NCBI RefSeq assembly: GCF_020520425.1
Contig: NC_079490.1
Coordinates: 1,984,001 to 2,048,000, forward strand
Source: Spinacia oleracea
Lineage: Eukaryota; Streptophyta; Magnoliopsida; Caryophyllales; Amaranthaceae
Length of the DNA stretch: 64,000 bases
Direction: 5' to 3'
Below, one piece after another: positions 7,035-63,983 of the stretch; within the stretch, counting starts at the first letter, position 1; every line of letters starts with the position of its first letter. The notes under the pieces were generated by a model that had not been told where the DNA came from, did no database searches, and saw only the letters and a program-made list of their open reading frames with translations. The position numbers and the translations under genes were made by a program.

Positions 7035-7965
7035 AATTTTACCCTACAATATTAGTTAACCATTAGAAGTTTTGACAATAATTGCTTTGCCACAATTAAT
7101 CTCAGTTTAGGGAAATCTTGGAAGTATCTTAGCCGGTAACCCATAGCAAGAAATAGTGGGGGCTAATATTACTTTGGACAGTGATTATCACGGCCCTAAT
7201 TCTTCATCCCGTATATTTATTTCTAACATTTTATACTTTGGACACATATTTCAAAGCGTAAAGAACATTAAGGAACGGATCGAGAAGTATATAGTACTAG
7301 TATAGTAGTACACGCTAATTAATTCTAATGCATTTCTAACTCGCAATAATTTGAATCGACATACTTCTTTTTCTGTAACCTAGAGTGGAGCAAATATAAC
7401 TAGGTTAACAAGTTTTACGGTTGTATTTCATTTAATGATGCATATACATAGAATGAAGTACGTACTTTCGCACGCATCGCATGCATATAAAACTAGTATA
7501 TATATTAGAGCGTTACGTAGGATTACTAATGGTTTCGGCCAATGAAAAATAAGATATCTAATTTATTTTTGAATTGAAAAAACTGAGTGTCACGTAGATA
7601 ATTAAGTAGGTGCCACGTGGATATATATAAATGCAAACAAAAAGGGGAGTTTTTTGGGAGTTTTTTTAGTGCCACGTAGGATGATTATGTCATTAAGTGT
7701 AATTTAAAATAAATTTTAAATAACATAATAATAAAAAAAATTACTTAGAGATAGATAATTTATTCGGTTACAAAACGGATGAGTCCAAAAAAAAAAAATT
7801 GCAAAATAAACAAAAGATAAAATTTGCAAAAAAAACAAAAGATTATTATGGAAAATAGTTATACTCCTTATAATATCTTGATTATGCTTGAAAGTATAAT
7901 TTTTGTCAATTTGGTCAAATGTTCGCAGGAAGACTACTGGTATTGGCCCTATTTTTTCAAAAGGT
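7035..7965. other. Intergenic, AT-rich, no gene seen
   Basis: No convincing exon, RNA gene or complete element was found. Short AT-rich stretches and CACGTAG/CACGTGG words around 7585-7680 were seen without clear termini. Confidence 0.5.
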
Positions 7966-8285
7966 CTTGTGCGCACTAGGTGTACAATAAATTTATTGTA
8001 CACCAAGATAACTTTTACCTATTTTTTTGTAACTTTAATCTAGTTTTGATTAACTTTTATATTAGTAAAAAAAACGTTGATAGATAAGCATTTTAAAAAG
8101 GTTAAATGATTAATTTTATACATTATTAGTGATTTTGAAGAAACAATTTTTATTAAAATGAAAAAAATTTATCATTAAAAAATGGATAACTTTTACCTAT
8201 ATAAGTTTAACTTTTAAACCTTTTGAGTTAACTTTTACTTTGGTGTATAATATTTATTGTACAACCATTGTAAATAAGAATTTAT
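7966..8285 (+). mobile_element. Hairpin-ended MITE, copy 1
   Basis: Begins near CTTGTGCGCACTAGGTG. It carries close to its left end a perfect palindrome (GGTGTACAATAAA joined to its reverse complement) and near its right end a second, weaker palindrome around GTACAA. It ends near CATTGTAAATAAGAATTT. About 320 bp, AT-rich, non-coding. Related copies are at 42775-43100 (inverted), 61411-61740 (same direction) and 62125-62400 (inverted, degraded). Confidence 0.7.
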
Positions 8286-8299
8286 GCTATCCTTTTTGC

Positions 8300-10004: not shown

Positions 10005-10869
10005 GTAAAATCTGGCTCATTATTCAAGCAATTTGAACTTTCGAATTCCTAAATGTTTGGCTGTTTTTTTTGAAATTACTCGTGATTATGTGAATTTAAC
10101 TTACGAAAACCTAAATTGATAGAGTATTTGAGTCGCGAGGTCGATGAATTCGTAAAAGTTTGTTGTTCTATTAGGCGAATTGCTTAATTTTTGTTTTTTT
10201 TTTGAAATTACTCGTGATTATATAAAATTTACTAACGAAAACCTAAATTGATAGAGTATTTGAGTTGCGAGATCGCCGAATCCATATTTTTGTTGTTCTA
10301 TTAGGCGAATTGCTTGATTGTGAGTCGGATACGTCTTCTCGCTGCTCAGTTGATTTAGGTTCATGATTTTTATGTCAGCATGTTTTTATCATACGACTTG
10401 ATTGTTTTTATCAAAGTATTGAATCAATTGCAGTTATTATCATACGCTTGATTTTTCTTATCAATTGTCAAAGTTTTTGCGGAAGATTTTTAGTCATCTT
10501 AAAGTGTTTGGCGCAAAATTGATGTAATCTATTTTGAGTATTCAAAAAATCAGGCAGCATGATAGTTGTTACACGGATTTAGTGTTCGTTTGAGTTGTAT
10601 AACAGTGAGTTTTGCCTCTTTGGTACTGAAGTTTCACCACTTGTTGATGTAGTAATGTGACCTAATTGCTTTATGAAAATGCATTTATTTTATAAAATGA
10701 ACTCGGAGGATTAAATTCAAAAAGATTTTAGTTCTGCTCGTATTTCAGGATCATCTGAAATTTGAATTCTGAACTATTGTGTGCAAATGAATTTAATTGT
10801 TGGCTTTACGTGCAAATATCGAATGCAAAAGCGTACCGATTTCCTGCTTTGTTGAATTTCTTTCATATA

Positions 10870-13800
10870 ATTAGTGATGGTGTACTTTCTAATTTGATAG
10901 ACTTTTAACATCTGATTAATATGCATCCTCTCTTTCCTGGCTGAAAAATGCCGAAATTCATGTCAGTTACTTTCATGGACAATTTGTTCTGAAAACGTAG
11001 CTTATCTGTGAGTATACAATGCCTTTACAAGGACCTGTTTGGCTGCCTGTTACTTTGATATAAGGTCTGGATTTATGATCTTTACGGCTCTACCTGGTTA
11101 TGGTGTACCTATTCGGCTACTCCTTACGTGCAACATGTATGAAAATGGCTTGATAGAGTGTTCAACAGGTGGATCAATTGAATGCCTCAGTGTTAATTTT
11201 GATGATCATGCTGATGATTACCTTTTATATTCAGATTTTACATAATTAGTGATGGTGTACTTTCTAGTTTGATAGACTTTTAACATCTGATTAATATGCA
11301 TCCTCTCTTTCCTGGCTGAAAAATGCCGAAATTCATGTCAGTTACTTTCATGGACAATTTGTTCTGAAAACGTAGCTTATCTGTGAGTATAAAATGCCTT
11401 TACAAGGACCTGTTTGGCTGCCTGTTACTTTGATATAAGGTCTGGATTTATGATCTTTACGGCTCTACCTGGTTATGGTGTACCTACTCGGCTACTCCTT
11501 ACGTGCAACATGTATGAAAATGGCTTGATAGAGTGTTCAACAGGTGGATCAATTGAATGCCTCAGTGTTAATTTTGATGATCATGCTGATGATTACCTTT
11601 TATATTCAGATTTTACATAATTAGTGATGGTGTACTTTCTAGTTTGATAGACTTTTAACATCTGATTAATATGCATCCTCTCTTTCCTGGCTGAAAAATG
11701 CCGAAATTCATGTCAGTTACTTTCATGGACAATTTGTTCTGAAAACGTAGCTTATCTGTGAGTATAAAATGCCTTTACAAGGACCTGTTTGGCTGCCTGT
11801 TACTTTGATATAAGGTCTGGATTTATGATCTTTACGGCTCTACCTGGTTATGGTGTACCTACTCGGCTACTCCTTACGTGCAACATGTATGAAAATGGCT
11901 TGATTGAGTGTTCAACAGGTGGATCAATTGAATGCCTCAGTGTTAATTTTGATGATCATGCTGATGATTACCTTTTATATTCAGATTTTACATAATTAGT
12001 GATGGTGTACTTTCTAGTTTGATAGACTTTTAACATCTGATTAATATGCATCCTCTCTTTCCTGGCTGAAAAATGCCGAAATTCATGTCAGTTACTTTCA
12101 TGGACAATTTGTTCTGAAAACGTAGCTTATGTGTGAGTATACAATGCCTTTACAAGGACCTGTTTGGCTGCCTGTTACTTTGATATAAGGTCTGGATTTA
12201 TGATCTTTACGGCTCTACCTGGTTATGGTGTACCTACTCGGCTACTCCTTACGTGCAACATGTATGAAAATGGCTTGATAGAGTGTTCAACAGGTGGATC
12301 AATTGAATGCCTCAGTGTTAATTTTGATGATCATGCTGATGATTACCTTTTATATTCAGATTTTACATAATTAGTGATGGTGTACTTTCTAGTTTGATAG
12401 ACTTTGAACATCTGATTCGTATTCATCCTCTCTTTCCTGGCTGAAAAATGCCGAAATTCATGTCAGATACTTTTAAGGACAATTTGTTCTGAAAACTTAG
12501 CTTATGTGTGAGTATATAGTGCCTTTACAATGGACCTGTTAGGCTGCCTGTTACTAAGATCTAAGGTCTGCATTTATGATCTTTACGGCTCTACCTGGTT
12601 ATGGTCTGCCTACTCGGCTACTCCTTTTGTGCAACATGTATAAAAATGGTTTGATAGAGTGTTCAATAGGTGGACCAATTAACGCGTCAGTGTTAGTTTT
12701 GATGATCATGCTGATGATGTTCTAGTCATCTCAAAGTTTTTGCCGAAAATTTCTAGTCATCTTAAAGTATTTTGCACAAAATTCATGTCATCTATTTTGA
12801 GTATTCAAAAAATCAGGTTAGCATGATAGTTGATACAAGGATTTTAGTGTTCATCTGAGTTGTATAACAATGAGTTTTGCCTCTCTGGTACTGAATTTTC
12901 ACCGCTTGCTAATGTAGTAATGTGATCTAATTGCTTGTACAGTCTGGTTCCTTTAGAATTCAGTGCTTAGCAAAGGTAACCTGTTCTTTAAACAAAAAAG
13001 TTTGTTCTTTTATAATGAACTTGGAAGAACAAATTCAAGGAGATTTTAGTTCTGCTCGGTTTTCAGGACCATCTGAAATTTGAATTCTGAACTATTGTGT
13101 GCAAATGAATTTAATTTTTGGGTTGTGCAAATATCGAATGCAAAAGCGTATTGATTTTCTGTTTTGTTGAATTTCTTTTATATAATTAGTGATGGTGTAG
13201 TTTCTAGTTTGATAGACTTTGGACATCTGATTAATAAGCATCCTCTCTTTCCTGGCTGAAAAATACCGAAATTCATGTCAGATACTTCTATGGACAATTT
13301 GTTCTGAAAACGTAGCTTATGTGTGAATATACAGTGCCTTTACAAGGACCTGTTTGGCTGGCTGTTACTTTGATCTAAGGTCTGCATTTGTGGCTCTACC
13401 TGGTTATGGTCTGCCTACTCAGCTACTCTTCACGTGCAATGTGTATGAAAATGGTTTGATAATGTTCAATAGGTGGATCAAGCGTGCCAGTGTTAGTTTT
13501 GATGATCATGCCGGTGATTACCTTTTATATTCAGATTTTACATAATTAGTGATGGTGTACTTTCTAGTTTGATAGACTTTGAACATCTGACTAATACGCA
13601 TCCTCTCTTTCGTGGCTGAAAAATGCCGAAATTCAAGTCAGGTTATTTTCATGGACAATTTGTTATGAAATCGTAGCTTATGTGTGAGTATATAGTGCCT
13701 TTACAAGGACCTGTTTGGTTGCCTGTTACTTTGATCTAAGGTCTGCATACGGCTCTACCTGGTTATGGTCTGCCTACTCGTCTACTCCTTACGTGCAACA

Positions 13801-15363
13801 TGTATGAAAATTGTTTCATAGAGTGTTCAATAGGTGGATCAATTGAATGTGTCAGTGTTAGTTTTGATGATCATGCTGATGATTACCTTTTATATTCAGA
13901 TTTTACATAAATAGTGATGGTGTACCTTCTAGTTTGTTAGACTTTGAACATCTGATTAGTATGCAACCTCTCTTTCCTGGCTGAAAATGTCGAAATTCAT
14001 GTCAGATACTATTATGGACCATTTGTTCTGAAAAAGTAGCTTATGTGTGAGTATACAGTGCCTTTACAAGGACCTGTTTGGCTGCCTGTTACTTTGATCT
14101 AAGGTCTGCATTTATGATCTTTATGGCTCTACATGGTTATGGTGTGACTGTGCCTTCTCGGCTACTCCTTATGTGCAACATGTATGAAAATGGTTTGATA
14201 GAGTGTTCAATAGGTGGATCAACCAAGCGTGCCAGTGTTGGTTTTGTTGATCATGCTGGTGATTACCTTTTATATTCAGATTTTAAGGAGACAGCTATTG
14301 TTTCCTTCATAAATTTCTGTTCTAAATGCTTAATAAGGGGATAATTTGTCATAATTTCGGCCACAGAGCTTTATGCAGCTCAATGTCTTCCTCTTGAAAT
14401 GAATTGAACTAGCATGATATTAAGTGTTCATGTGTTAGTTTTAGCCCACATTACCGTTTTGCACAAAATTCATGTCATATATTATGAGTAACTAAAAGAT
14501 CAGGTAGAATGACAGTTGATGCAAGGATTGCAGTGTTCATGTGTTGAAGAAGTTCGTATAATGGCCAGAAATCTTTGCCTATTTGGTACTGAATTTCTCA
14601 CCGCTTGCTAGCGTGACCTAATTACTTGTGTTGTTAAATTCCTTTTAGAATTCAGTGCTTCCTCAAGAAAACATGTTTCTTATAAAAATGTTTTTACGGT
14701 CAATACAGTATGAACTTGGAAGATCAAATTCAAGAAGATTTTAGTTCTGCTCGAACTTTGTGACCATCTGAAATTTGAATTCTGGGCTATTTTGTGGAAA
14801 TATATTTAATTGCTGTCCGTGTGTCCATATATCGAATTATCAATGCAAAAGTGTAGTTATTTGCTGCTTTGAGGAATTTATTTTTTTGAAATTACGTATG
14901 GTGCACTTTATAGTTTGATAGACTTTGAACTTTAGATTGATATGCATCATTTCTTTCATGGCCAAAACATGCCAAAATTCATGTCAGTTACTGTTTATCT
15001 GTTATGGACAATTTATATGAAAAATTAAGCTTATATCATATAAGTACAAACTACAAAGTTGTGAATATTTGAGTATATGCTCTGTGATTTCTTTAGAACG
15101 GATCTGTCTGGCTGCCTGTTATTTTGATCTAAGGATTTCGTTAATTTATGATCTGTACGGCTCTACCTGATGTCAATGTGCCTATTTGGGTACTCCTTTG
15201 TACGCATGACTGCCACATGTATGAAAATGGCTTGGTAGAGTGTTCAATAGGTGGATCAATTGAACGCGTCAGTGTTAATTTTGCTAATCATGATGGTGAT
15301 TACCTTTTAATATTCAGATTTTACGTAGACAGCTACTGTTTCCTTCATAGTCTTCTGTCCTGA
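10870..15363 (+). repeat. 375-bp tandem array with higher-order structure, inside intron 1
   Basis: Four near-identical 375-bp units run 10870-11244, 11245-11619, 11620-11994 and 11995-12369, recognised by ATTAGTGATGGTGTACTTTC at each start. More diverged units follow at about 12370-12720, 13183-13545, 13546-13910, 13911-14290 and 14890-15340. A second module of about 400 bp (CATCTTAAAGT...ATTTTGAGTATTCAAAAAATCAGG...) occurs at about 10490-10870, 12720-13180 and 14450-14880, so the array has a higher-order pattern: module plus n x 375. Each good unit holds the same 68-codon open frame (MAACYFDIRS...LLYSDFT), for example 11039-11245, 11414-11620, 11789-11995 and 12164-12370. No known domain is recognised, and the frame may be incidental. 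Confidence 0.9.
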
Positions 15364-17014: not shown

Positions 17015-20000
17015 ATCTTTTCGTACAAACTTTTGTATAAGGCGGTCTTACAGGAAAGACCACCTTATATGTGGGTATTTTCGCGGGTCAATACACACGG
17101 ATATGGGTCTGGTTTAATTTTGGGTCGCATAAAAACCAAAATTTCATCCATTTCAAACCTAATTCCTGATCTCTCTCCTCTAAACTCTCTGATCCCTTTC
17201 TCTCTCCTCCTAACCGGAGTTGTTCTCTCTCCTCCGTCCGCCTCTTGGCCAAAGCCTAACACCGGCCAAAGCCTCCTCGCTGTTTCAATGCTCCGCCGCC
17301 ATCAACTCCTCACCTTTCCAGAAGAAGAACAAGGAACACCGGTCGTGCCGTCGTTGTCGCCATCACGTTTCCTCTTTGCCGCTTGTTGCGACCGCTGTCG
17401 CCGATGTTTCTTTAGTGTTCGTTCGGTGGTTCGAACCAAGGATTTCGGCGTCGCCGATTCGTTTGAGCAGCGGCGTCGCCAATTCGTTTGAGCATCGGTG
17501 GAGTAGTCGATGGTGGCGAGTTGTCCCCCGAAGGAAAAGCCTCAAAGAACTCAGTTAACTCCTTCCTCTCATGATTTTTTGGAATTTATTTGTTGATTAA
17601 TTGGTTGATTTTACAATTTAGGTGAATCGATGATGTTTTTTTTACGTTTTTTTATTTTTGATCTTTTTAAAATTATTTTTATGCGATTTCTTTTATGCAA
17701 TTTCGTTTGAATTAGTGGTGCGGTGATCATTCAGGCGTTTCTGATTTTTGAATCCGCAGGTATTGTTCACTTGGATGTTGTTGGCTGTTGTAGGCTAGTT
17801 ATGTGAACTGATGAAGAATTGGACCGACTGGTGGTTTTCTGGTGGCTGCGACACGCAGAGAGGCAGCTTCTGAAGCACCGCAAGGTTTGTGTGGTGACGC
17901 TAGGCTTGCACCATTAGGCTTGCTGTGCTGGTTGGCAAAATGCAAAGAATTGTAATTTAGTTTCCAATATGTATTGTAGATGTAAATAATTTTTTTCATT
18001 AGTCTAAGAATAATTTCATTTTAGTTACATTTTTGTTATATTTAGTTACAATTTTATGAGTTTTAGTTAAAATTAATTTTGTGGTAGTTAAAAATTATTT
18101 AAGTTTTAGTTAATATTTTTTAAGTTTTAGTTATGATTTTCTTGGTTTTAGTTAAGTTTTTTTTAGCTTTAGTTACGTATTTGTAAGTTTTCAATTCAGT
18201 GCTTTAGTTACGACATTTCGAGTTTTAGTTATGATTTCACAAGTTTAAGTTACGATTTTTTTGGTTTTAGTTAAGATTTTTTGAGTTTCAGATAACGAAT
18301 TTCAGAATTTTAGTTAAGATATCAAATTTTAAGCATTGAAACCAATAAGTTAAACAATTGAATCAATTAGTTATAAAATAAAACTAATAAGTTAAGTTTT
18401 GGAACCAATTGTTAAGCAATATAATAAATTTGGTAATCCATACAATCAATTAGTGAAACAATGAAACCAATTAGTGAAGCACTGGAAGCAATTAGTGAAG
18501 CACTGGAAGCAATTAGTGAAGCACTGAAATTAATTAGTGAGACACTAGAGTCAATTAGTTAAGTTTGAAATTCAATTAGTTAAATAAAGAAACCAATTAG
18601 TTATGCAAAGGAACTAATTAGTCAAACAATTAAACCAATTAGTCAAGCAATTAAATCAATTCGTTAAGTATTGCAACTAATTAGTTAAGATTTTATGAGT
18701 TTTAGTTAATAATAATTTTGTTTAAAAATAATAACTATTCGACTCATAAGTTTAACTATATGTTTTTATACCTTAACTATTTTGTTATTCAACTAGCTAT
18801 GATTTATTACAATTAGTTATGATTTTATTACTTTTAGTCAACAACATATTTCAAGAGGGCTAATTAAGATTTTTTGAGTTTTAGTTAAGATTATTTTTCG
18901 AGTTTTAGTTACGATTAACTTTGTTTTAGATAAGTTTTTCTAAGGTGTAGTAATGATGTTCTGAGTTTTAGTTAAGTTTTCTGAGTTTTTAGTTAAGAAT
19001 TTCCTAGTTTTAGTTATGTGCTTTGGAGTTTCAGTATGATTTTTAAAGTTTTAGTTAAGGTTTTTTGGATTTTAGTTATGGCTTTTGGAGTTTTAGTTAT
19101 GATTTTAGAAATTTGTTATGAATTCAAAAACTTTAGATACGTATTTTTGAGTTTTAGTTAGATTTCAGAAATTTTAGTCTAGTGTTTCCATGTTTTAGTT
19201 AAAATATTTTTGATTTAGTTAATATTTCTATGTTTAAGTCAAGATTTTCTGAGGTTTAGTTATGTGTTTTTGAGTTTCAGTTATTATTTTTTAGTTATGA
19301 TTGTTTGAGGTTGAGTAATAAGTTTGAAAGTTTTAGTTAAGATTTCCTGAATTTTAGTTATGATTTCATAAGGTTTAGTTACGGTTTTCCAGGGTTTAGT
19401 TATGATTTCGAAAGTTTTAGTTAAGATTTTTTCGGTTTTAGTTATGATTTTAGAAGTTTTAGTTATGATTTTTCGAGTTTTAGTTAAGATTTCAAAAATT
19501 TAGTTACGTGTTTTTGTGTTTTAGTTACATTTTTTGAGTTATAGTTAGTAATGATTTGAGAAGTTTTAGTTAAGAGTTTTTGAGTTCTAGTTAAGATTTC
19601 AGAAGTTTTAGTTACATTTTATTTGAGTTTTAGTTAAGATTTTAAAAGTTGTATTTTTTTTTGACTTGAGCAATGAAACCAATTAGTGAAGTGTGAAATT
19701 CAATTAGTTAAGCATAAAATTAAATTAGTTAAGCAATAGAACGAATTAGTTACGCATAAAATTCAATTAGTTAAACAATTGAACCAATTAGTTAAACAAT
19801 TGAACCAATTAGTTAAGCAATAGAACGAATTAGTTACGCATGAAATTCAATTAGTTAAACAATTGAACCAATTAGTTAACAATAGAACGAATTAGTTACG
19901 CATGGAATTCAATTAGTTCAACATTGAAACTAAGTATTTGTTAAGCCTTAAATTCAATTAGTTAAGCCTGAAATTCAATTAGTTAGACACTGAAATTAAT

Positions 20001-21867
20001 TAGTTAAACAAATAAACCAATTAAGTTAACAAAGAAATCAATTGGTTAAGCACTGAAACCAATTAGTTAAACAAAAAATGACTTAACTAAACCATTTTAT
20101 TTCATAACTGAATATAATTATTTTACAATCATAGATACAAATTACAAAATGTAAGTGGAGAGGACCGGAGAGAGTTGTTTACAATTGTTGCACCATACGG
20201 GCAAATCAAAGATGGAACAAGGAACTCTAGAAGCTATAAATCATCACTGGGAGGCTACTAACATTGTGACGCCACAATAATTCCTACAAAGGGAAGTACT
20301 CTGAATTCATGTCATCTCGCCGAATTTAAGTCAACTGACTCTACTAACCTAGATCTTCGCCTGCGCTTTCCATCAAGAGTGCACACCAGTCCATTCTTCT
20401 GCACCTTCATAAAATAAGTAGCTTCAAGTTTTGTTTGACACTCCTGTTTATAACCATGGAACAATATGCTGATAAGTTGGAAAACAATAAACAAAATGTG
20501 ATGGAAGTATAATGATAATACTCGAGGAAGTCCCACGTGAACATTGAAAGACGGAAGTGGGTTTAAGAAAGACGAAAATCATGTCTGATTCAAAAGCTAA
20601 CAGAAACTCAGTTGTAAACAGAATACACCTTGGAAGATCACCAACAAAAAAGTGAGATATAGGCACCCAAGCTAACTAGATTATTAGCTCCATCATATTC
20701 CTCATCCTGCCATGTTTCCCTTGTTCGTTCAAGATCACACAATGTCCTACCTACAAGGCTACAATGTCCTATTTGTTTTCTAACTCCATAACTGTCAGTA
20801 ACCCTCAAGCTCAACCAGACATGATTTCGGTCACTACAAATTTTATTGACATATTTTCGTCTACTATTTGCAAATTTGACTAGAGTCAGGTCAATCACAC
20901 AGAAACAGGCACCAAACATCTTAACTAAACAAAACAAAATTATAACTAAATATGACAATGCATTAACTAATTCCCATTGAAAACTAAACACAACAGAAAC
21001 ATAACTAAATATGAGAAATCCTTAACTAATTTAATTCATAACTACGCATGTCACATACTAGAGTACCACAAATCCAAACTAAAATTAACAAGAGATAACT
21101 AAAATGTAAATTTAATCAATACTTTCAACAAAATCAGCGTAATTAAGAGAACTATGGTATATGCAAAGGAACTGAAACACTTGATCTGGGAATTGAGTGT
21201 GAAATTGAATATAAAAAAATATACTTACACAATCTCAAAGAACGCGAAACGGTTAGCATTTTCCTCCGATAGATTTCGTGCCATTGTTGTGTAGGTAGAG
21301 TGTGGATTTAGGATAGAGGAAGTTGCAGAGTTGCAGAGTTTGTTCACCGGAACCCTAGATATGCAGTTCTTCCATGTGAGGCGGCGGAAAAGCTTCCAAA
21401 CAGGCGAAGGTTTCAGGAGGGAGAGAGACCGCCGACGAGTTTGAGAAGGTAGAGATGTCGGCGGGTAGATAGATGTAACACCACCGTCGTACCTCGGTGG
21501 TGGTGGCCATGGAATTAGCCGAAGGAGTTGCAGTGACGCCGGATTATTTGAGGAGGAAGAAAGATCGGCGTAGCAGCTACCGCCGGCGAGGAAGAGAAAT
21601 CGTGGCCCTCTCCATGGTTGTGCCTCCCAGCCGTGAAATTAGGATTTTAGGAGAGAGAAAAAACCAGAGAGTTTAGGAGAGAGGAGGGGCAGAGAGTCGT
21701 TGGGAGGAGAGAGACAAATGAATCGTGTTTGCAGGAGAATAATGGGAGGAGAGAGAAAAAACAACAATTTATACCGCGCGTGACACCACGCGCGCGTGGG
21801 TGTCTTACCTGGTCTTTTCTACACGCGCCCGTAGGGCGGTCTCATACAAAAGCTGCTGATCTTTTCG
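17015..21867. mobile_element. Non-autonomous Mutator-like element with perfect 9-bp target duplication
   Basis: ATCTTTTCG at 17015-17023 and again at 21859-21867 flanks an element of 4835 bp (17024-21858). The ends are related inverted repeats: left CTTTTGTATAAGGCGGTC (from 17029) and, on the minus strand, right CTTTTGTATGAGACCGCC (from 21853). A 9-bp duplication with such ends fits a MULE. No transposase frame is present. The inner flanks (17150-17560 and, inverted, 21230-21770) are CT/GC-rich and look like leader or captured gene sequence: on the minus strand an ATG at 21284 opens MARNLSEENANRFAFFEI, ending near a GTAAGT at about 21230. The core is a dense array described separately. Confidence 0.75.
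18000..20090. repeat. TTTTAGTTA / CAATTAGTTAA word arrays inside the MULE
   Basis: From about 18000 to 18330 and 18690 to 19660 the sequence is a loose array of GTTTTAGTTA(A/T)GATTTT-like units of roughly 20-30 bp. From about 18350 to 18680 and 19670 to 20075 it is an array of CAATTAGTTAAGCA(A/C)TGAAAC-like units of about 21 bp. Weaker inverted versions continue at 20920-21120. The arrays are degenerate, with no open frame. The same words, inverted, make up the small element at 45450-45850. Confidence 0.85.
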
Positions 21868-23559: not shown

Positions 23560-23859
23560 CGTTCCCAACTTTCCCCCATTTTTCTCTCTCCTCTCACTTC
23601 ACGTTTTCTCTCTCATGGGACTGCAATCGCCGAACTTCTCGTCGGTAAATTCTTCCGTTTAATTTGAATATATACTTTTTACTTAAATTAAGCTGTTAAT
23701 TTCTGTAAAGTATCACTTTAATTTTCGGAAATTAGGTTTTCTTTAGATCTGGAAACGAGGGAAAAAAACGAGGGGTTTAATTATATGTCACATTTATGCT
23801 GTGGATTGTTTGTTGTTGTTGACTTGTTGTATGTAAAATTAGGAATAAAGGGTTAGATA
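23560..23859 (+). promoter_or_regulatory. Leader of the OBERON4-like gene with probable 5'UTR intron
   Basis: A CT-rich leader (TTTCTCTCTCCTCTCACTTC) ends at GTCG|GTAAAT (23644/23645). A T-rich, pyrimidine-poor stretch ends AAAATTAG (acceptor at 23841-23842), giving a 5'UTR intron of about 200 bp. The ATG at 23860 follows. There is no clear TATA box. Confidence 0.4.
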
Positions 23860-26800
23860 ATGAAGAGGTTAAGATCGTATGGTGATGATTTGGCGTCGGT
23901 TGGCGAGAAAGAACTCGACCGAACGACGTCGTTTTCGTCATCTCATCACCGAAGATTTTACTCCAAAGGGCCGGAAAACGGCCGGAATAGACCTTCTCCG
24001 GTGATAGATGATGATCGGGATCGAGAGGGTTCGTCTTCAAGGGTGGGAAGTATGAGGAAAAGAATGGACCATGATTTGGATGGTGTTGATGAGAGGGAAG
24101 GTTCTAGAGGGTTTAGGAAGAGAGCGGAACATGAATTTTCTGATGGGTTTGAAGATAGGGAAGGGTTTAGAGGGGTGAGGAAGAGAGTGGAGCATGAGAA
24201 TGATGGGTTTGATAGGAGGAAAGGGTTTGATCGGTATAGGGATCGGGATGGAATGGTGGGTTCGGGTTCGTCATTGGTGTCGCCACGAGGTGGTGGGTAT
24301 GTGGCAGATAGGGATAGAGAGAGGGAGAGGGAAAGACTCGAAAGAGAGAGGGATAATAGGGAAAGGGAGAGGATTCATCGGTCCGAGAGCTTTTGTGTTT
24401 CGAGGAGGGATTTCCCGAAAGGGTTTAGGTCGGAGAGGCATTGGTTGAGAAGGGAGGACGGAGGTTCGTCGTCGTGGAGGAGGTTTGATAGTAGGAGCAG
24501 GAAGGAAATTGATGAAGATGCAAAGAGCTCACCACCGGTTGAGAAGGGAGGGAGCATTAGCAGCAAAGGTGGTGGGGGCCCGGATAGTGGTGGTGTTGTT
24601 AGTAGTAGCAAGGAGAGTTTGAGTTTGAGGTCTCCACGAGGAGGAATTAAAGATGTCAAGTCACCCACGTGGTCTAAAGATTCAACTAGAGATTCGAAGG
24701 AGTCGGTGGGTGAGCCTGAGCCGTTGAAAGATACCAAGAAAAACGAGAGTATGGTAGCAGATAGTGCTGGCCCTGGTGCGTGTGGTGGGGCCATTGGGAG
24801 TGGAAGTGAGATGGAGGAAGGAGAGCTTCAACCAGAATTGAATCAGATGATTCAAGCACCGGATGATAGGGTTGTTTCTGAGCCGACTGTGGATAATGCA
24901 GAACAGTGTGCTGAGAATCCTCAAGTAGACAGGGATAATGGGAAGAAGCTACATGAGCGTAATGCTAGTCGAATGGTCGAGTCAAGAACAGCTGATGCAA
25001 TTGTTACAGACAGTAATTTGGCTCCAGAAAACGAAAAAGTGGTGAGTGAAGTAGGTGCTGCTGACAGGAAACAGGTTACGGTTGTAAAAGCAAACCACGA
25101 GATTGTGAAAGGTGCAGAAAAGTTCTCAGTTTCCGTTTCTGAAGACACTAAAGCGCCGGTACGTAAAGGTATTGTTGAAAATACAGCTGCTAGTGATGTA
25201 AGATTGAGGGAGAATCAACCCGAGTCATCTGCCCCTACTACAAACATGACCCTTGATAGTCAGGTGAAAGTGGAAGAGCATGATCCTACTAGATACATGG
25301 ACAAGCCATCACCAGAGAAAGAGAAATCACAAAATAATAATCTTGATCTCGAAGTTGGTTTGGGTGAGTCAAATAAAGCCATTGTAGAAGAAGGGTATAA
25401 AGAGCCTGAACAATCTATCCCTGTCACAAAAGATAAAGGGAAAGGCGTGGCTGTAAGCTCTCCTGGCGAGGCTAGTGTTAGAGAAAACAGTTTGCTGGTT
25501 GAAAGGAACTTCATTTCTTGCCAAGATGATGATGCTATGGTAGGCCCCAGTTCACGAGGGTTCGAGCTATTTTCTAGCACCGCTGGAGTCAAAATGGAGT
25601 GTGCTGCCAACAGGTGTAGCGGGTCTAAATCCGAAGCCGAGAAGCTAAAGTTGGAACCCTTAGATCTCTCACTTAGCCTACCTAATGTTTCAGTCCCTGT
25701 CAGTGTTGCTGCTGCACCCCCGAGCTCTCCTCCGCGTGCAAGGAGTGTTCAGTCATTTGGTACCACTCTCAGAACCGGCTCAGATTGTTTCACCACATCG
25801 ATTTCGTTCTCCGGGTCACAATTCCTTCACAATCCGAGCTGTTCACTTACTCATAATTCTGTTGATCATGACTTTGAGCAATCCGTGAAAAGCCGTCCCT
25901 TATTTCAGGGTGTTGATTGGCAGGCATTAAGTGCCAATGATCCTCTTCCGAAGGAAGTTCTTGCAAACACAAAACAAGCTTCAAATGGTAACGGGTCTCT
26001 ACATTTTACACAGTCAACCCCGGGAATTTTGAATGGTCGAGCTGTACAACACCAGCCAGTAGTACTTCATGGAGTGGATCGGTCTAGCATTCTTCAGAAA
26101 CAGCCCTCTGGAAAAATACGATATCAAGACGATTTCCGGTCTCCTGCTCAGAGTACTGGATCTCGTGATACTAGATCGGAATATGGGAAAGACAAGAAAC
26201 GGGTGACTGGGGAAGACAGTGTAGCTGGAGAAAGAGATCTCGTGGAGCGGTTAATTTACCTAATTGCTTCTGAACAAATCCAAACCATGTCGTGGAGAGT
26301 TAACGAAATGCCAGAACGTTCCGTTGCTTTCTTGAAGGACAGTGTATGTGATATTGTGTTAAAAGATGATAATCAAAGAAAGCTACGTGCGCTTCAGGAT
26401 ATGTTGCGGAAAAGGTCTGATCTTAATTTAGAGACCCTGTTAAAGTCACACCGTGTCCAGTTACAGATTTTAGTGGCTCTTAAGACCGGTCTTCCGGACT
26501 TCATTCAGCGTTCTGACAGTATTTCTTCGAGCGATTTGGCAGAGATTTACCTGAACCTGAAGTGCAGAAACAGTAACTGCCGAAGTGCTTTACCCGTAGA
26601 TGAGTGTGAATGTAAATTCTGCTCCCCGAAAGAGGGTTATTGCAGTTCTTGTATGTGTCTCGTTTGTTCCAAGTTTGACACGGCTTCCAACACGTGTGGT
26701 TGGGTTGGATGTGATGTTTGTGACCATTGGTGCCATACCGATTGTGGGTTGCTGAAATCTTACATTAGAAATGGTCGAAGTGCTGCTGGGGCCCAGGGGA

Positions 26801-29800
26801 TGATATCTGAGATGCAGTTTTACTGTCTTGCTTGTGATCATCCTTCTGAAATGTTTGGCTTTGTGAAGGATGTTTTCAAAATTTGTGCTACCGAATGGAA
26901 AGCTGAAACATTTCTTCGGGAACTTGAGTACGTGAGAAGGATATTCAGCGGTAGCAATGATTACAGAGGGAAAGTATTGCATGATGCTGCTAAGCAGCTG
27001 ATTGGTAGATTGCAAAGTGGAGCGAAAACTGCGGATATCTGTAATCAAATTATGGCGTTTCTAAATGGTAAGTACTTTCAGGAATGTTTTCTTCATAGCA
27101 GTACCTTATTTAAATTTCAATATTTGCTGCATGGTTTCCTTGTAGTATTTGTTTCTCTAGGCAACACTGAATACATTAGAAAGTTCGGATGGTAAGTACA
27201 TTGTTCTTTTAGAAAGTAATACTCCCTCCGTTCTTGAATATTAGTCCATTTTGGAATCTAAGATAATCCGGTTCCTTGATCAATTGTGGGGGGTTTAATG
27301 GGGATAAAAGTCTGTTTGAGGGTAAACAAGTGGGCATTTGAGATATTTATAGGTATAAAAAGGGGATAAATGTTAGACAAATAAGGAAAGATTCCAAAAG
27401 GGACTAATAAAAACGAACAACTCAATTAAGAAAGGGGACTAACGTTCAAGAAGGGAGGGAGTACTAATGTACTATATTTGTGCTGTTTTTGCTAATAGTC
27501 AAAAGTAAAAATCGGTGGTTTTTGCTAGTACATCCCGGTGTTGCTGTAGTAAATGTTGTGGCCCAATCTTGAAACTGGACTTGTTGCTACTAACTCATTT
27601 CAGCTGTTGCTTCTCATAACAAGGTCTCTTTGTTGTTGATTGTCTAGAATTTTCCTGCTGAAATGATCATTTTCTTGTTTGATACTTTGATGAACTCATT
27701 TCAGTTAAAAAGTTAATGCTCCATTAAGTGCATTTGAACAGCATTTACAGGAACTGGTAGTTAGGAGACGATTTCCAATTTCCAAATCGACCAAGTATTT
27801 GCCAAGCGTATTATTGACCCACTCACTGCAAAACCCAACTAGATAGATAGAGGGAGATGTATTAGGTCCATATTAGATCTAAAAAAAAAAGAAAAAGAAA
27901 GAAAAAAAAGAAAGTGATTTTGGTGCAGAGTTATTGCAGTTACTCTTGTTTTATTACTTTATAATTCCTGTCATCTAAGGTTTTCAGATTGGCCAAGACT
28001 CATCCTGCCACATGTCCGCCATGGTAAAAATACAGTGGCAGAGTTTTCTAAATTGGCATAACCCACCTCCAGTTTGATACATGAAGTACTTCTTTTAGTT
28101 GCTTGTTAAAGTGAGACATCTACCCACCCACACGGTCACACATACGGTTAAAGATCCTAGGAAACTTTCTATTGCCCTCCCTTAAAAAGTAACTAATGAT
28201 GCATTTAATCATAGGTGGGGAGAATGAGAAAGAGAGATCATACATGTGTGGATTAGTTACTGTGCTGCTGTATCTTTGTGAAATAATCTTTTTCTTTTCA
28301 AAATACAGAATACATTGAATCATATGAAACACTAATCTATATTGACAGTCGCTACAGACATTTTCTCCGTATTTTTTAACCATGAGAAGGAAATCCTTGT
28401 TCTTTTGGGTGTAGTGTATCATACCAATTCACATCACATCCTGATATTTTAGTAGGCATAGTTTTATTCCGGCAGCTACATTTTACAAAAAGGGAATATC
28501 TAGACCTGATCATCATGAGCCCTGCTCAGCCGGTTTTTTTTAACTTTTTGGGTGGGTTTTGGGCAACTCAAAATTGCAATTTTACTTATAAATTTGGTCT
28601 GGCCCGAAAATGGCCCGTTATTTGGCCAGAAATAGCGGGTTGGGCAGAAAAATCTGACCGAAGTTTGACCGGGTTCGGGCCCGCAATTTGATCAGGTCTA
28701 AATATTACATAACACTTGATGGCTCATTGTATAGATAGCTATGTTACTCCGACACTCCATTTGACGGTGGGTGTCGGTGTCGACACGACCCGATCCGCGA
28801 CACGACACTCGACACGTGCCTGGGGAGGTGTCGACACCAGTGTCGGAAAAGAGTCCAATTTGAAGTGTCGAAATCGGGAGTAGAAAGAAAAATTCGAAAC
28901 CCTAGATCTAGAAATTGAAGGTGGGGAGAAGCGAGAGAAGAACAATTATGTTGGGGCTTTTGTTGTTGAAGAAAAAACGCCTAGATTGCACTCTTTGATT
29001 CTGATTTTCACCGATAATTGACTGTTTGAGAGTCTTCCATGGTTGTCTTCGTTTCCTTCCGGTCATTTTTCTGCCTTATGCTGAGTTATGCGTTGTTGGT
29101 GATGGTGAGTGACTGAGTGGTGGACTGGACTTTCCAAACTTATTCTTTTTTTTTACCCTTTTTCAAAATACCCTAGGCCTACCCGTATACTTCGTAATAA
29201 ATAAAAGAAAGGAAAAGATGGGAAGTGGGGAACAAACCCACGTGCTCACTGATAACTTTACAAAAAGTTAGCATTTTCTTTTTTTTTCATTTGTTTCTTA
29301 CTTTTTCAATTCTTTGTACTTTTAAACTCTTTAGGATAGATTTTATCCTGCTTTAGAATTTTAACTTAAACTTAATTAATATTTTTATTTTCATTTTTTT
29401 TTATATAATTATATTATTTAACACTATTTTTGTAGTTTTTATTAAAAGTGTCGATTTTTTTTCCGACACTTGCAAGCGAACCGTGTCTAAAAAAAAGGTC
29501 AAGACACTCCTTTGACCGTGTCGGAGTGTCTGCAAATATTTGGATCGGAGTGTCAGATACTCCGACACCTTGTCGGACACGACACCGACACCCGTGTCTG
29601 AGTAACATAGATAGATAGTGCTTGAGGGTCTCACATATTTGGTTCCCATGCTATTAAGCAGGGAAATGTAGCCCCATCTTTTAGTAGTATAGTTTTATTT
29701 CTGCAGCTACATTTTACAAAAAGGGAATATCTAGACCTGATCATCATGACCCCGACCCGATTTTTTAATTTTACAAAAAGGGAATATTTAGTAGCATAGT

Positions 29801-42200: not shown

Positions 42201-44604
42201 AAGTGTTTTAAAATGCAAAATTAATGAAAACTTAACTAAAATTAAGCAAAATTTGTTTCCTAATCGGGTTTTCCTATGGTTCGTGTCCAAGTGTCATACT
42301 CGGTCATTTTTATGAGAAATTTCTATGTTCCTGATCCAAAATAATGTGTCTAAGAATCTAAACCCATGTTGGAGTGTCGAATACTATATTGTTTCTTGCA
42401 ACCTTCGTTGCTTTCTTATCAAACTTATTGACATTCAAATGTTCAATTGATGAATCAAAGATGTCTTGACCTAATGGTTAAGATTAATGACATGTATACA
42501 CTAGGTCTCAGGTTCGAATCCCCCCTCCCATATTTCCGACATGATTGACCAATTTGACAAGTCTTACTTATGTTTCATGAGTCATGCATGGTTGAAATAT
42601 TTTGATGAGCTTTTGTTATCTAGGTGTTTAGGCATTACAACAAACTTTTGAGATATAACTTTCAAATTTCCACAATATATCATCTAATCTATCTTCCCAA
42701 AATCATCAATCAAATTTGTTTCTTAGATAGCTTACCTTAGTACACATTTTTCTTACTCATATTCATATCAACACAAATTCTTATTTACAAAGGTTGTACA
42801 ATAAATATTGTACACCGGAGTAAAAGTTAACTCAAAATGTTTAAAAGTTAATCTTATATATGTAAAAGTTATCTATTTGTAAGTGATTTTTTTTTTCATT
42901 TTAATAAAACTTATTTCTTCAAAATCACTAATAATGTATAAAATCAATCATTTAACCCTTTAGAATATTTATCTATCAATTTTTTTTTACTAATATAAAA
43001 GTTAATCAAAACTAGGTTAAAGTTACAAAAAAATGAGTAAAAGTTATCTTGGTGTACAATAAATTTATTGTACACCTTGTGCGCGCAAGACCTTTTGTCA
43101 TATCAATTGGTATGAGAGTTAAAGACAAAACACTTGGGCATTTAATTAGTTACATCGTTTGCTAGAAGTTGTCAATGTCAAACCCATTCATAGACATTAG
43201 ACACCCATAAGTTGGCCATAACTATCCTTTATCCAAACCATGGCAAGAAATGTTCGTTACAACAAGCTAAGTTAACACGTACTCTAGCTAGAAAGTTCTT
43301 GGGAATTGGTACCATCAATGAAGCAACCACACAAATAAGATTGCCATAAATAAAGTACAACAAATCCAAAAAACTCAACAACCCCAAAAACCAAAACAAA
43401 AAAAAAACAAACAATTCCATTATTTCTCCCAAATTATGGACTTTAATTGTAAGAAGTGTGTGTGCCTAGAAACAAACTAAAGCTCATGCAAGTTTTCCAA
43501 ATTTATTAAATCAAATCTAGATCCGTCAAAGTTTGTAGGCTTTGGGGAGACAAGTACATACAAATACAAATACGTTTTGAATTAACATCTTTTCCCACTT
43601 GGATACTGATTCAGCGACCGTATTTCTAGCTTGTCTAACATAAACAAATTAACTACTTATATAAAAAATTTAAACTCATGCAAGTTAATTATCGATGTGT
43701 TTTCTTTTATAGACGATTCTCTCCCGTTACTGGACCATCTAGATGCAAAGTTCATAACTCATGCCTACAATTCATTACATATTACTTCCTCCGTTTCTGA
43801 AAGTTGTTTACGCTTAGGAATATGTGTCCAAAATATGAAAACTTTGACCGTAAATTCTCACTATTATATACATCAAAACGTTACATGTAAGATCTTGTTA
43901 GATTGGTCTCGATATGTATTTTCAGAATATCAACTTTTTATAATTTTTTCACATACGAAATTGAATATATTAGTATTTAAATATTGCATTGGAGTCCGTG
44001 CAAATAGTAACTGTAAAGAACATTCTGAAACGGAGGTAGTACATACTTAGGCTATAACCTAAACATTTCTTATACAAGAGTCGATGAAGGTACCAAAGCA
44101 AAATAGGACAAAAACTAAGAGTAACTAACACACATGCATACTTTGAATTAAATCAGTGTTTAACAAATCGAGACAATCAATGCTGCGGATGTCGTATGAC
44201 TTATTATTAAGGATAATAAAATAAGAAAAACATTTAAACTAAGAGTAATTAACACACATGCATACTTTAAATTAGTGTTTCACAATCGACACAATCAATG
44301 TTGCCGATATCGTATGACTTATTATTAACGATAACAAAATAAGAAAAACATTTAAACTAAGAGTAACTAACAAACATGCATACTTTAAATAAGTATTTCA
44401 CAAATCAAGACAATCAAATGATGCAGATGTCGTATGACTTATTATTAACGATAACCAAAAAAAAAAAAAAAACATACTTAGGCGACGAACGGTGGCGTTG
44501 ACGGTGTAACCACGGTCAAGCAAGAGTTTGACGATCCAAGAAGCAATGTAGCCTGAAGCACCTGTAACACACACCTTCTTCCCTTCTCCTCCTTTGGAAT
44601 CCAT
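39235..44604 (-). CDS. CCR-like / phenylacetaldehyde-reductase-like dehydrogenase, gene A (328 aa)
   Basis: Six exons on the minus strand join without a break: 44604-44478, 42138-41969, 41229-41035, 40931-40769, 40218-40032 and 39379-39235 (987 nt). It is an NADPH-dependent extended short-chain dehydrogenase of the CCR/DFR group. The Rossmann motif [10 protein letters not shown] is at residues 14-23, R/K residues that favour NADPH follow beta-2 (TVRRLNDPKK), Ser is in FTSSMAA (about 130), and catalytic Tyr167-x3-Lys171 is in KWYLQSK. It lacks the NWYCYGK signature of true lignin CCR, so an aldehyde or CoA-ester reductase of the CCR-like/PAR type is likelier. The substrate is unknown. Exon 6 uses an acceptor TTAG just before GCCCGCAG; the later CAG would give a stop. 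Introns 2, 4 and 5 each hold a family-1 MITE. Confidence 0.9.
39447..39996. mobile_element. Nested MITEs in intron 5 of gene A
   Basis: The outer family-1 element runs TACCTGATCATCTTGAGCC to GGTGATCGGGTCTA. Inside it, 39553-39736 is a second element with ends TAGGGGTGTCAAATTGGG and TTTTTTGACAGCCCTA, the family also seen at 9536-9700. Family-1 sequence resumes after it (GTCGGGACCAAAAAAGG). Confidence 0.65.
40389..40711. mobile_element. hAT-like MITE family 1 in intron 4 of gene A
   Basis: TAGACCTGATCAAAAGG to AAGATGATCAGGTTTA are inverted ends. The interior has GGGCCGAAAGTAGC and GGGCCGGGTCAGC. It ends 58 bp from exon 4. Confidence 0.7.
41265..41906. mobile_element. Family-1 MITE cluster in intron 2 of gene A
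   Basis: About 640 bp built of repeated family-1 units: CTTGATCCTGGCCCGCTGG at the left and CGGCCCGCCTTCTGACCAGG at the right. TTGGGCCCGGTCCGACC-like cores occur at about 41500 and 41660, as if two or three copies were fused or internally duplicated. The ends are degraded. Confidence 0.6.
42455..42560 (+). mobile_element. tRNA-derived SINE-like sequence in intron 1 of gene A
   Basis: GACCTAATGGTTAAGA (A box, about 42468-42484) and GGTTCGAATCCCCCC (B box, 42511-42525) are in Pol III promoter order and spacing. The sequence does not fold as a full tRNA. The 3' limit is not clear. Confidence 0.5.
42775..43100 (-). mobile_element. Hairpin-ended MITE, copy 2 (inverted), in intron 1 of gene A
   Basis: Mirror image of 7966-8285: starts ACACAAATTCTTATTTAC, ends with the perfect palindrome built on GGTGTACAATAAA, then CTTGTGCGCGCAAGACC. 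Confidence 0.75.
43785..44039. mobile_element. Stowaway-like MITE in intron 1 of gene A
   Basis: Ends CTTCCTCCGTTTCTGAAAG and, inverted, CTACCTCCGTTTCAGAATG, each next to TA (43783-43784 and 44040-44041). 255 bp. Confidence 0.75.
44110..44462 (+). repeat. About 120-bp tandem repeat, three copies, in intron 1 of gene A
   Basis: The unit starting AAGAGTAACTAACACACATG and ending near AATAAGAAAAACATTTAAAC begins at about 44118, 44242 and 44360. Copies differ by small changes. Confidence 0.8.
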
Positions 44605-61410: not shown

Positions 61411-61740
61411 ACAAAAGATCTTGCACGCACTAGGTGTACAATAAATTTATTGTACACCAAGATAACATTAACCCAATTTTTTATAACTTTAACCTAGTTT
61501 TGATTAACTTTTATATTAGTAATAAAAAAGTTGATAAATAAACATGTTAAAGGGTTAAATGATTAATTTTCACATTATTTGTCATTTTAAAGAAATAAGT
61601 TTTACTAAAATTAAAAAAATTATCACTAAAAAATACATAACTTTTACATATATAAGCTTAACTTTTAAGCATTTTTAGTTAACTTTTACTCCAGTGTACA
61701 ATATTTGTTGTACACCCATTGTAAATAAGAATTTGTGTAA
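61411..61740 (+). mobile_element. Hairpin-ended MITE, copy 3, in the 3' flank of gene E
   Basis: Same plan and direction as 7966-8285: GATCTTGCACGCACTAGG, the perfect GGTGTACAATAAA-based palindrome, an AT-rich body, a second weaker palindrome around GTACAA and the end CATTGTAAATAAGAATTTG. Confidence 0.75.
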
Positions 61741-61899: not shown

Positions 61900-63983
61900 T
61901 TATTCCATAGTAGCATTAGGAATGGTAATCAACTTCTTTTCTTTAAAGGTTTCAACAGTATCCTTAATACTGTCTTTCAAAGCAATATATTGAATGCCAA
62001 GGCTTTCAGCTTTGGTTTTGGATATTTTGTATGTTTTCGCCAACGGTCCTTCATCCGCACACCTAATAATAAAACCATTCGAGAAAGTTATACTTCGTAA
62101 GAGATAGATTGTAACTAGAGAAACACAAATTCTTATTTACAAATGGTGTATAATAAATATTAACACTGGAGCAAATTTAACTGAAAATGCTTAAAAGTTA
62201 CCCTTATCTATGTAAAAGTTATCTATTTTTTAATGATAAAAATAGTTTATTCAAAATTATTAATAATGTATAAAATTAATCATATAACCCTTTAAAATAT
62301 TAATCTGTCAACTTTTTTAAATAATACAAAAGTTTAAAACATGCTAAAAGTTTCAAAAAATTAGGTAAAAGTTATATTATCATCGTGTACAGTTATTGTA
62401 CTAAAGAATGCATCGGATTTTCGGAGATTTAATTAAGGATCAACACTTACTTATCAGAAACTGGAAGAGTAGGATAGAGATCGTGTAACATTTTGACAAT
62501 CTCTGAGTGATGTACCACGCTTTCGACTAAACAATACCTCCCGTTAGCCGAAGGAAGTTCAAATGCACGAATGTGAGCTTCCGCAACATTTTGGATGTGC
62601 ACCCACGGTAGTGCGACGTTTGGATATGTTTGTTCCCCTAACAATTAAACATTGTCGCACATCAAAGACAAAATCAGATAATAGGGGTGGGGGATTGGAA
62701 CCTGAGACTTATCATACACAGACTTATCATACACAGACCATCCGTCTTAACCACTATGCCAAGACCTCATTAGTACAGATTCAGATAATTGCATCATGAA
62801 GATATAATTAATACGAGTACGAACCATTGATCAAGGTGAAAATAAGAGATACGGTTTCGTTGAGCTTCAGCGGCAGCATAGGACCAATTACCATGCCTGG
62901 GTTCATTGAGACTAGGTCAAGACCATGCTCTTTGGCAAACTTCCATGCAGCCTCTTCAGCCAAAGTTTTGGATGTTAGATACCACATCTGCAAATCAAAT
63001 TAAAGTTCAAGAAGTTAATTTTATCAAAATATACCAACACCTTTTGTAGCTCATTCACACACAAAACAAAACCCGGATGTACAAGGATAAATTGGAAAAA
63101 AAAAGAAAAAACTTCGTAGATAACTTAATTTTCTAGCTCTCTCTAGAAACTGCCCAATTAGAGTTGTGCATGGGCCAAGCCTACACGCGGGCTGCGTGAG
63201 CTCGGTACGAAATTGGTCAGACACAGCATTGTAAACCCAACACGACACGAGAGGCATGGCGATGAGTCATGGGCCGTGCATGGATATCATTTTAGAAATT
63301 TTACACGGGCCCAATACGAGCAGGACGGACCAGCCCACACGCCGGCACACTTATTTTTTTAATCTATTAACAAAAAATCTTAAAATTAGTAACTAACCAT
63401 GCTAGCACGGCACGGTCCGGTCCGGCCCGATACAGCACGTGAGACGGGTCGTGTATGAGACTCATGACTCATCTATGGAAGAGAGGCACGACTGCACGAG
63501 CCTAACACAACACGACACGGCACGACTCGACGTCACTTTCTCTCGGGTCGTTCTAGGCACGGCCTGTTAGGAGTCCTAACTTAGGACACTAGGCATGCGA
63601 GGCCCATCACGTGGGCGTACACGGCCCAACACGTGCCCAACTCTATGCCTACTTCTATAGTTCTATCGCTTTATTGCAATTGTTATTTGTTCCCTCAACT
63701 CTTACCTTGTTACCCACAAACTACTAGGCTAGCTACACCAAAATTAGCTTGATAACATTGGTTTTGAAAAGGATTCAACACGTACCATGTTAGGGTAATA
63801 GTTGCAAAACTCTGGTTTAGAAAACCAAGTTTCATCAACCAAAACATCTGGTGCTAGAGTTATACCAGTGAATAGAACTGCTGCCATTGAAGATGTGAGA
63901 ACTACTCTTCTTACAGTATCAGCTCTTTTACAGGCATTCAGAACATTCAGTGTTCCCTTTACTGCTGGATCAATTACTTCAAC
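61900..63983 (-). CDS. CCR-like / phenylacetaldehyde-reductase-like dehydrogenase, gene E (partial)
   Basis: Exons 3-6 are present on the minus strand: 63983-63786 (198 bp), 62987-62825 (163), 62637-62451 (187) and 62062-61900 (163). Exons 1 and 2, with the Rossmann motif, lie beyond 64000. All four exons are open and in phase. They encode [23 protein letters not shown], Tyr-x3-Lys in [38 protein letters not shown] and a C-terminus ending [19 protein letters not shown] instead of WVHVKDV and a Gly-Glu-Gln exon-5 start make it the most divergent copy of the cluster. Nothing seen suggests decay, so it is probably functional if exons 1-2 are intact. Confidence 0.85.
62125..62400 (-). mobile_element. 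Hairpin-ended MITE, degraded copy 4, in intron 5 of gene E
   Basis: ACACAAATTCTTATTTAC at the left and AAAAGTTATATTATC then GTGTACAGTTATTGTAC at the right. The palindromes have decayed and the outer end is lost. Confidence 0.6.
62681..62776 (-). mobile_element. tRNA-derived SINE-like sequence in intron 4 of gene E
   Basis: On the minus strand GGCATAGTGGTTAAGACGG (A box) precedes CAGGTTCCAATCCCCC (B box). Between them GTGTATGATAAGTCT is doubled. No tRNA fold. Confidence 0.5.
63159..63645. mobile_element. hAT-like GC-rich MITE in intron 3 of gene E
   Basis: Ends TAGAGTTGTGCATGGGCC and, inverted, TAGAGTTGGGCACGTGTTGG. The interior has CGGCACGGTCCGGTCCGG and CACGACACGGCACGAC words, related in style to family 2. 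No clear target duplication. Confidence 0.6.

Follow-up and report, generated by a model that had tools for sequence, protein, structure and literature searches.

A TTAGTTA array at 21-bp pitch in a MULE-like element of spinach: a possible docking array for a trans-acting factor

Detailed knowledge of sequence-specific transposon anti-silencing has so far come from the VANDAL group of Mutator-like elements (MULEs) in Arabidopsis, whose VANC proteins bind short DNA words: YAGTATTAY for VANC21, and AGTTGTCC and AGTTGTAC, with the form AGTTGTMC, for VANC6 (PMC5735166). VANC words are dense, share one orientation and often lie in tandem repeats of noncoding regions; sparse words elsewhere show no association with binding, and once VANC is expressed, methylation across the element is lost (PMC5735166). 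The regions targeted by VANC proteins are described in another paper as the same noncoding regions acted on by RNA-directed DNA methylation, and VANDAL ends as degenerate (PMC10398659). The VANDAL clade itself was described from Brassicaceae (PMC6446971), and a 2026 review states that VANC genes carrying Ulp1 are strongly conserved in eudicots (PMC13317346). Here, a 64-kb stretch of spinach DNA (Spinacia oleracea, contig NC_079490.1, positions 1,984,001 to 2,048,000; below, the window) is considered. It contains a MULE-like element with a long, one-way array of the word TTAGTTA at its core, and this array may serve as a docking site for a protein supplied in trans. All statements about copies are counts within the window.

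The element and its array

The element occupies positions 17024-21858 (4,835 bp) between perfect 9-bp target-site duplications, ATCTTTTCG; among random pairs of 24-bp stretches from the same window, a shared 9-mer or longer occurs with a frequency of 0.0024. Its inverted ends are related, but as they match at only 19 of 25 positions, they are short and degenerate. On both sides CTTTTGTAT begins at base 7 inside the duplication, and inside of the ends the two shoulders share a CT-rich inverted match (32/38). Target duplications of 8-11 bp, mostly 9 bp, together with inverted ends that are long in many cases and degenerate or absent in some, are the marks of MULEs, and both are seen here. Thus, the proposal of an earlier, sequence-only reading of this DNA, which had noted the duplication and the related ends and had assumed a non-autonomous MULE with an array as its core, holds up: judged by its structure, the element fits a non-autonomous, degenerate-ended MULE. 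That reading had also seen no transposase, and indeed none of the 49 stop-to-stop open reading frames (ORFs) of at least 40 aa that overlap the element reaches the Pfam cut-off. Matches below the threshold to NPV_P10 (E 0.0024, in a translated repeat; the best of these) and to Rap1a (E 0.011) were taken as chance, and a match of the 127-aa ORF at 20638-21021 on the minus strand to the PDB (best E 0.48) was rejected. No captured host gene fragment was recognized by Pfam or, for the 127-aa ORF, by the PDB comparison.

The inner shoulders, earlier called CT/GC-rich, are so by composition (Table 1), and their CpG observed/expected values lie above the 0.75 of the whole window, which could be explained by leader-like sequence alone. 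In the right shoulder, a short, splice-ready ATG exon had been read on the minus strand at 21284-21230; an ATG stretch from 21284 does run into GTAAGT at 21228-21223, and to that extent the segment is a candidate exon.

The word of the array is TTAGTTA, mostly repeated at an exact 21-bp pitch. Between 18000 and 20090, AGTTA occurs 67 times and TAACT 5 times, so that 67 of 72 words share one orientation (binomial P = 6e-15), and 39 of the 66 successive AGTTA spacings are exactly 21 bp. In 500 Markov-1 sequences, by comparison, AGTTA was found 14.3 ± 3.7 times (maximum 25), and pairs at 21 bp had a mean of 0.07 and a maximum of 2. An autocorrelation analysis, which the sequence-only reading had suggested, places lag 21 first in all six sub-regions examined, a small related element at 45.5 kb among them. 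With up to one mismatch allowed, TTAGTTA-N14-TTAGTTA is present 64 times in the window, as against 0.05 times in shuffled sequences: 55 matches lie in the large element, 9 in the small one and 0 elsewhere. Fifty of the 55 are on the plus strand and five on the minus strand, one at 20084 and four in a reversed patch beyond the right border of the main array; in the surrounding 20880-21130 there are 7 TAACT and 0 AGTTA. When the large element, the small element, the first three copies of the MITE2 family described below and a TTA microsatellite are masked, the window retains two AGTTA pairs at 21 bp, both in a decayed MITE2 copy, and one of these joins true words.

The sequence-only reading had described two interlocking degenerate word arrays. 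An array far beyond chance expectation is present, but its blocks follow one another in the order A1-B1-linker-A2-B2 rather than interlocking; that description mentioned neither the pitch of 21 bp nor the single orientation of the words nor the reversed patch. The consensus units of A and B have 10 of 21 columns in common, nine of which form the run TTAGTTAAG.

Recurrence and conservation of the word

The small element (~0.42 kb), whose left limit was set by analogy with the large element and whose right limit is approximate, consists of related ends and an array core, with little besides. Its core is 82.65% identical to 18528-18838 over 317 columns, and its left end is 72.5% identical to that of the large element over 40 columns. 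Its right end has GACGGTCTAACGGTTAGACC, which agrees with the left end of the large element in 15 of 19 columns; right end against right end, the two elements match only weakly. Its words are spaced 21,21,21,21,24,21,21,21,90,21,21. The pair TCAGAAACT/TCAGAAATT (8/9) was considered as its target duplication but rejected as unproven, as it would give unequal ends. The sequence-only reading had taken other copies without the array or the ends as contradicting its interpretation; the one related copy in the window keeps an array and related ends.

The same pitch is found in MITE2, a family of miniature inverted-repeat transposable elements (MITEs) with four copies in the window and a 26-bp palindrome, GGTGTACAATAAATTTATTGTACACC, near the left end that is intact in three of the four. 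Both subterminal parts carry AGTTA words at 21-bp pitch, three near each end. In the copy at 42.8 kb, the six words read TAACTTTWA (AGTTA reversed) and are spaced 21,21,133,21,21; all six recur in the copy at 8 kb, where the spacings are 21,21,136,21,21, and in the copy at 61.4 kb five of the six are intact as TAACT. Measured against the 42.8-kb copy and with gaps excluded, 52/54 word columns are invariant among three copies, compared with 225/271 other columns (P = 0.006); among all four copies, the values are 45/52 and 164/238 (P = 0.006). The ends of MITE2 agree with those of the large element at 35 of 64 positions, versus 17.6 for random partners, with a P of 2e-4 that is optimistic because the comparison was chosen after the ends had been seen. 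Since words at this pitch are carried by both the small element and MITE2, a one-off cargo is an unlikely explanation of the array.

The placement of the words bears on the question of their use. They could serve the transposase itself, or a TNPA-like helper, as binding sites and be needed in cut-and-paste transposition rather than in anti-silencing. Three words near each end of MITE2 and the reversed patch on the right-hand side of the large element would suit such a role, and there is precedent for it: in Aedes, subterminal tandem repeats of 9-15 bp are reported in 10 of 12 MULE families with long terminal inverted repeats, and the ends of Muta1 contain a 12-bp repeat nine times (PMC5225508). 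However, the main array is very long and central (the left end is ~1 kb away, the right end ~1.8 kb), the right-hand patch is weak, and the words of MITE2 are not mirrored but point one way at both ends. A role as transposase or TNPA-like sites is judged less likely than the VANC-like one set out below, and ranks second among the explanations.

Conservation of the word was judged in five sub-arrays (A1, B1, A2, B2 and the small element), each aligned to a 21-bp unit of its own by a procedure that was not conditioned on the word. In all five, the seven best-conserved columns either are TTAGTTA or share five or six columns with it. Their excess over the remaining columns is 0.20-0.22, which was matched by 0 of 150 neutral-decay simulations for each sub-array; in five control tandem arrays, the simulations reached the observed excess in 9/150, 42/150, 0/40, 10/40 and 32/40 cases. 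Between the large and the small element, word positions are identical in 41/42 cases and positions outside in 221/269 (P = 0.004) when the large element defines the words, and in 64/70 and 198/244 (P = 0.03) when the small element defines them. These alignments provide moderate evidence for constraint on the word, with homogenization within the array remaining as an alternative account.

That alternative can be put more generally: a neutral minisatellite would have expanded within the element, and the apparent conservation of the word would stem only from homogenization of units and from A/T-rich alignment. The A1-B1 and A2-B2 blocks do match as wholes (~68-70%), an ordinary array with a 43-bp unit exceeded its simulations too, and the chromosomes of Plasmodium falciparum have look-alikes in the form of 21-nt repeats with TTAGTTAAG in their consensus (PMC3287587, Table 1). 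On the other hand, spacers that differ have the word in common at the same pitch, elements at separate places differ less in the word than in the rest of their sequence, and AGTTA recurs at this pitch in MITE2; a purely neutral origin is considered unlikely and ranks third. The sequence-only reading had left the choice between repeated binding sites and a by-product of replication. Because the word is held while the spacers vary, and because the AGTTA pitch recurs in the small element and in MITE2, binding sites are now the better option and the by-product is weakened.

Table 1. Features of the large element, its small relative and the MITE2 copies (positions in the window)
Feature	Position	Strand	Basis or remark
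Left target-site duplication, ATCTTTTCG	17015..17023	.	read directly
Left end, degenerate inverted repeat with right end	17024..17048	+	19/25 match to right-end reverse complement
Left shoulder, CT-rich, leader-like	17024..17560	+	GC 0.50, CpG observed/expected 1.18; composition; no Pfam domain
Sub-array A1, unit TTAAGATTTTTTGAGTTTTAG, ~15 copies	18003..18325	+	repeat analysis
Sub-array B1, unit TTAAGCAATGAAATCAATTAG, ~18 copies	18325..18700	+	terminal part matches the small element (45.5 kb)
Linker, few words (2 AGTTA, 3 TAACT)	18691..18860	+	mostly common to the small element
Sub-array A2, ~37 copies	18864..19650	+
Sub-array B2, ~20 copies	19670..20085	+
Reversed TTAGTTA patch, again at 21-bp pitch	20922..21029	-	four paired-word matches
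Right shoulder, leader-like on minus strand	21221..21858	-	GC 0.51, CpG observed/expected 1.04; no Pfam domain
Right end, degenerate inverted repeat	21834..21858	-	pairs with left end
Right target-site duplication, ATCTTTTCG	21859..21867	.	read directly
Small related element, array in minus orientation	45446..~45866	-	related ends and core matching 18528-18838
MITE2 copy, 329 bp	7958..8286	+	duplication 7/9 (CTATTTTTT / CTATCCTTT)
MITE2 copy, 326 bp	42772..43097	-	perfect 9-bp duplication TCATATCAA at 42763 and 43098
MITE2 copy, 326 bp	61412..61737	+	perfect 9-bp duplication TAAAACAAA at 61403 and 61738
Decayed MITE2 copy, limits approximate	62124..62414	-	three words intact, one with one change

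A docking array as the favored explanation

The large element carries dense, one-way short words as tandem repeats in noncoding DNA, as VANC targets do. Given this shared architecture, it is proposed that a trans-acting, element-encoded protein docks on the array in its interior. The first candidate is a VANC-like anti-silencing factor, to which a probability of about 45% is assigned, and the second a transposase or TNPA-like binder. In this model, an autonomous relative would encode a DNA-binding protein that is supplied in trans and binds TTAGTTA. As most sites follow one another after 21 bp, or two helical turns, and in one orientation, many copies of the protein would align along a single face of the helix; dense arrays would thereby be bound and stray single words left unbound. 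If VANC-like, the factor would then strip DNA methylation and hold the ends and the leader-like shoulders open. The array may gain and lose units by slippage or unequal exchange, with wordless units being lost or decaying, and small derivatives would retain the ends and the words, these being what trans factors need.

The word also raises the possibility of a host protein. MBSII-like R2R3-MYB sites contain TTAGTTA, and such sites might recruit host factors that drive transcription of the element. Taken alone, this explanation leaves the fixed pitch, the single orientation and the dozens of copies unaccounted for, and it is regarded as improbable.

It should be noted that several observations weigh against the docking array. 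First, the pitch is not uniform: spacings of, for example, 14, 25, 35 and 36 bp occur, and as they contradict a strict 10.5-bp phase over the whole array, such a phase is not claimed. Second, the known VANC words are nearly missing from the large element, with 0 YAGTATTAY and 1 AGTTGTMC, although VANC words differ between VANC families and these counts consequently exclude only those two specificities. Nor do the passages available on VANC targets state a fixed 21-bp pitch, and among the 49 ORFs of at least 40 aa in the element, Pfam identified no transposase, VANC-like or other binder. Third, CpG is scarce in the interior on the right of the array, with observed/expected values of 0.52 and 0.30, as in long-methylated DNA. 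Fourth, some other A/T-rich 5-mers are as well conserved between the two elements as the word (TTTAT, for example, at 0.95), and the control arrays, which are small at 4-8 copies each, include the 43-bp unit that is equally extreme (0/40) and an 18-bp unit that is borderline (9/150). Finally, the words of MITE2 lack mirror symmetry and, with copies drawn from the window alone, its link to the large element may be a coincidence. The Plasmodium repeats, regarded as a chance likeness between AT-rich arrays with a 21-bp unit, likewise indicate that the combination can arise elsewhere.

The docking array can be extended to a broader hypothesis, which is speculative and on balance doubtful: several MULE and MITE families of this plant lineage would share a helically phased (21-bp) anti-silencing code with an AGTTA core, by which one trans factor licenses many non-autonomous elements and in which pitch and orientation, not density alone, are recognized. 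If so, the phased code would represent a system of the VANC type, either diverged or of independent origin, whose geometry is directly testable. The two-turn pitch, the dozens of one-way words and the small elements made of ends plus words would define a minimal target, and non-autonomous elements would seem to borrow an anti-silencing system. What passes for minisatellite junk in plant transposons would then become a searchable code.

Genomic setting and comparison with known elements

The window looks like plant nuclear DNA. By Pfam, a large ORF at 23857-27195 has an Oberon PHD domain (PF07227, E 5.9e-36) and an ORF at 30121-30711 an Oberon coiled coil (PF16312, E 7.4e-34). Over the whole window, Rfam gave 0 matches at the gathering threshold and ARAGORN 0 genes. 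Two exon-like ORFs on the minus strand, 51900-52421 and 57954-58346, with weak 3Beta_HSD (PF01073) matches just under the cut-off, are perhaps tandem reductase genes. A tandem array at 10867-14285 has a unit of ~365-375 bp, with ~5 copies at 97% in one block and ~3 copies at 87% in another. The segment 46595-46840 opens with a CACTACAAGAAA-like sequence, after which come short inverted repeats of the CGACGGG type; it is reminiscent of a non-autonomous element of the CACTA type. The consulted text of a survey of spinach transposable elements lists MULE-MuDR and MITEs and is silent on word arrays (PMC6337768), and a limited literature search found no published AGTTA arrays in such elements.

Several described systems resemble the large element in part. 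Like a Pack-MULE, it is a non-autonomous MULE with an interior that is not transposase; its main cargo, however, is a word array. In TNPA/Ac-type systems (CACTA, hAT), many copies of a short word are bound by an element-encoded protein, and the target duplications are 3 bp and 8 bp. The likeness lies in the many copies of one short word, but these are other superfamilies, and their words are confined to the ends. Activation by TnpA correlates with demethylation (PMC10398659). MULEs of the Muta1 type in Aedes have duplications of 8-9 bp, and their copies, autonomous or not, contain repeated short words (PMC5225508). The repeats of Muta1 lie inside long inverted ends and have 12-bp units with 3-4 bp spacers, in contrast to the central array and short ends seen here.

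By this comparison of architectures, the nearest known thing to the array is the VANC target array of the Arabidopsis VANDAL MULEs (VANDAL21, VANDAL6). The element is not filed as a VANDAL, because Pfam found no VANA or VANC gene in it and the two known words are practically absent. It also differs in its word, TTAGTTA, in its mostly strict 21-bp pitch and ~2-kb array, and in the presence here of small derivatives that keep ends and words. What it has in common with VANDAL arrays is a short AGT-containing word, present densely, in one direction and in tandem within noncoding DNA, between degenerate ends.

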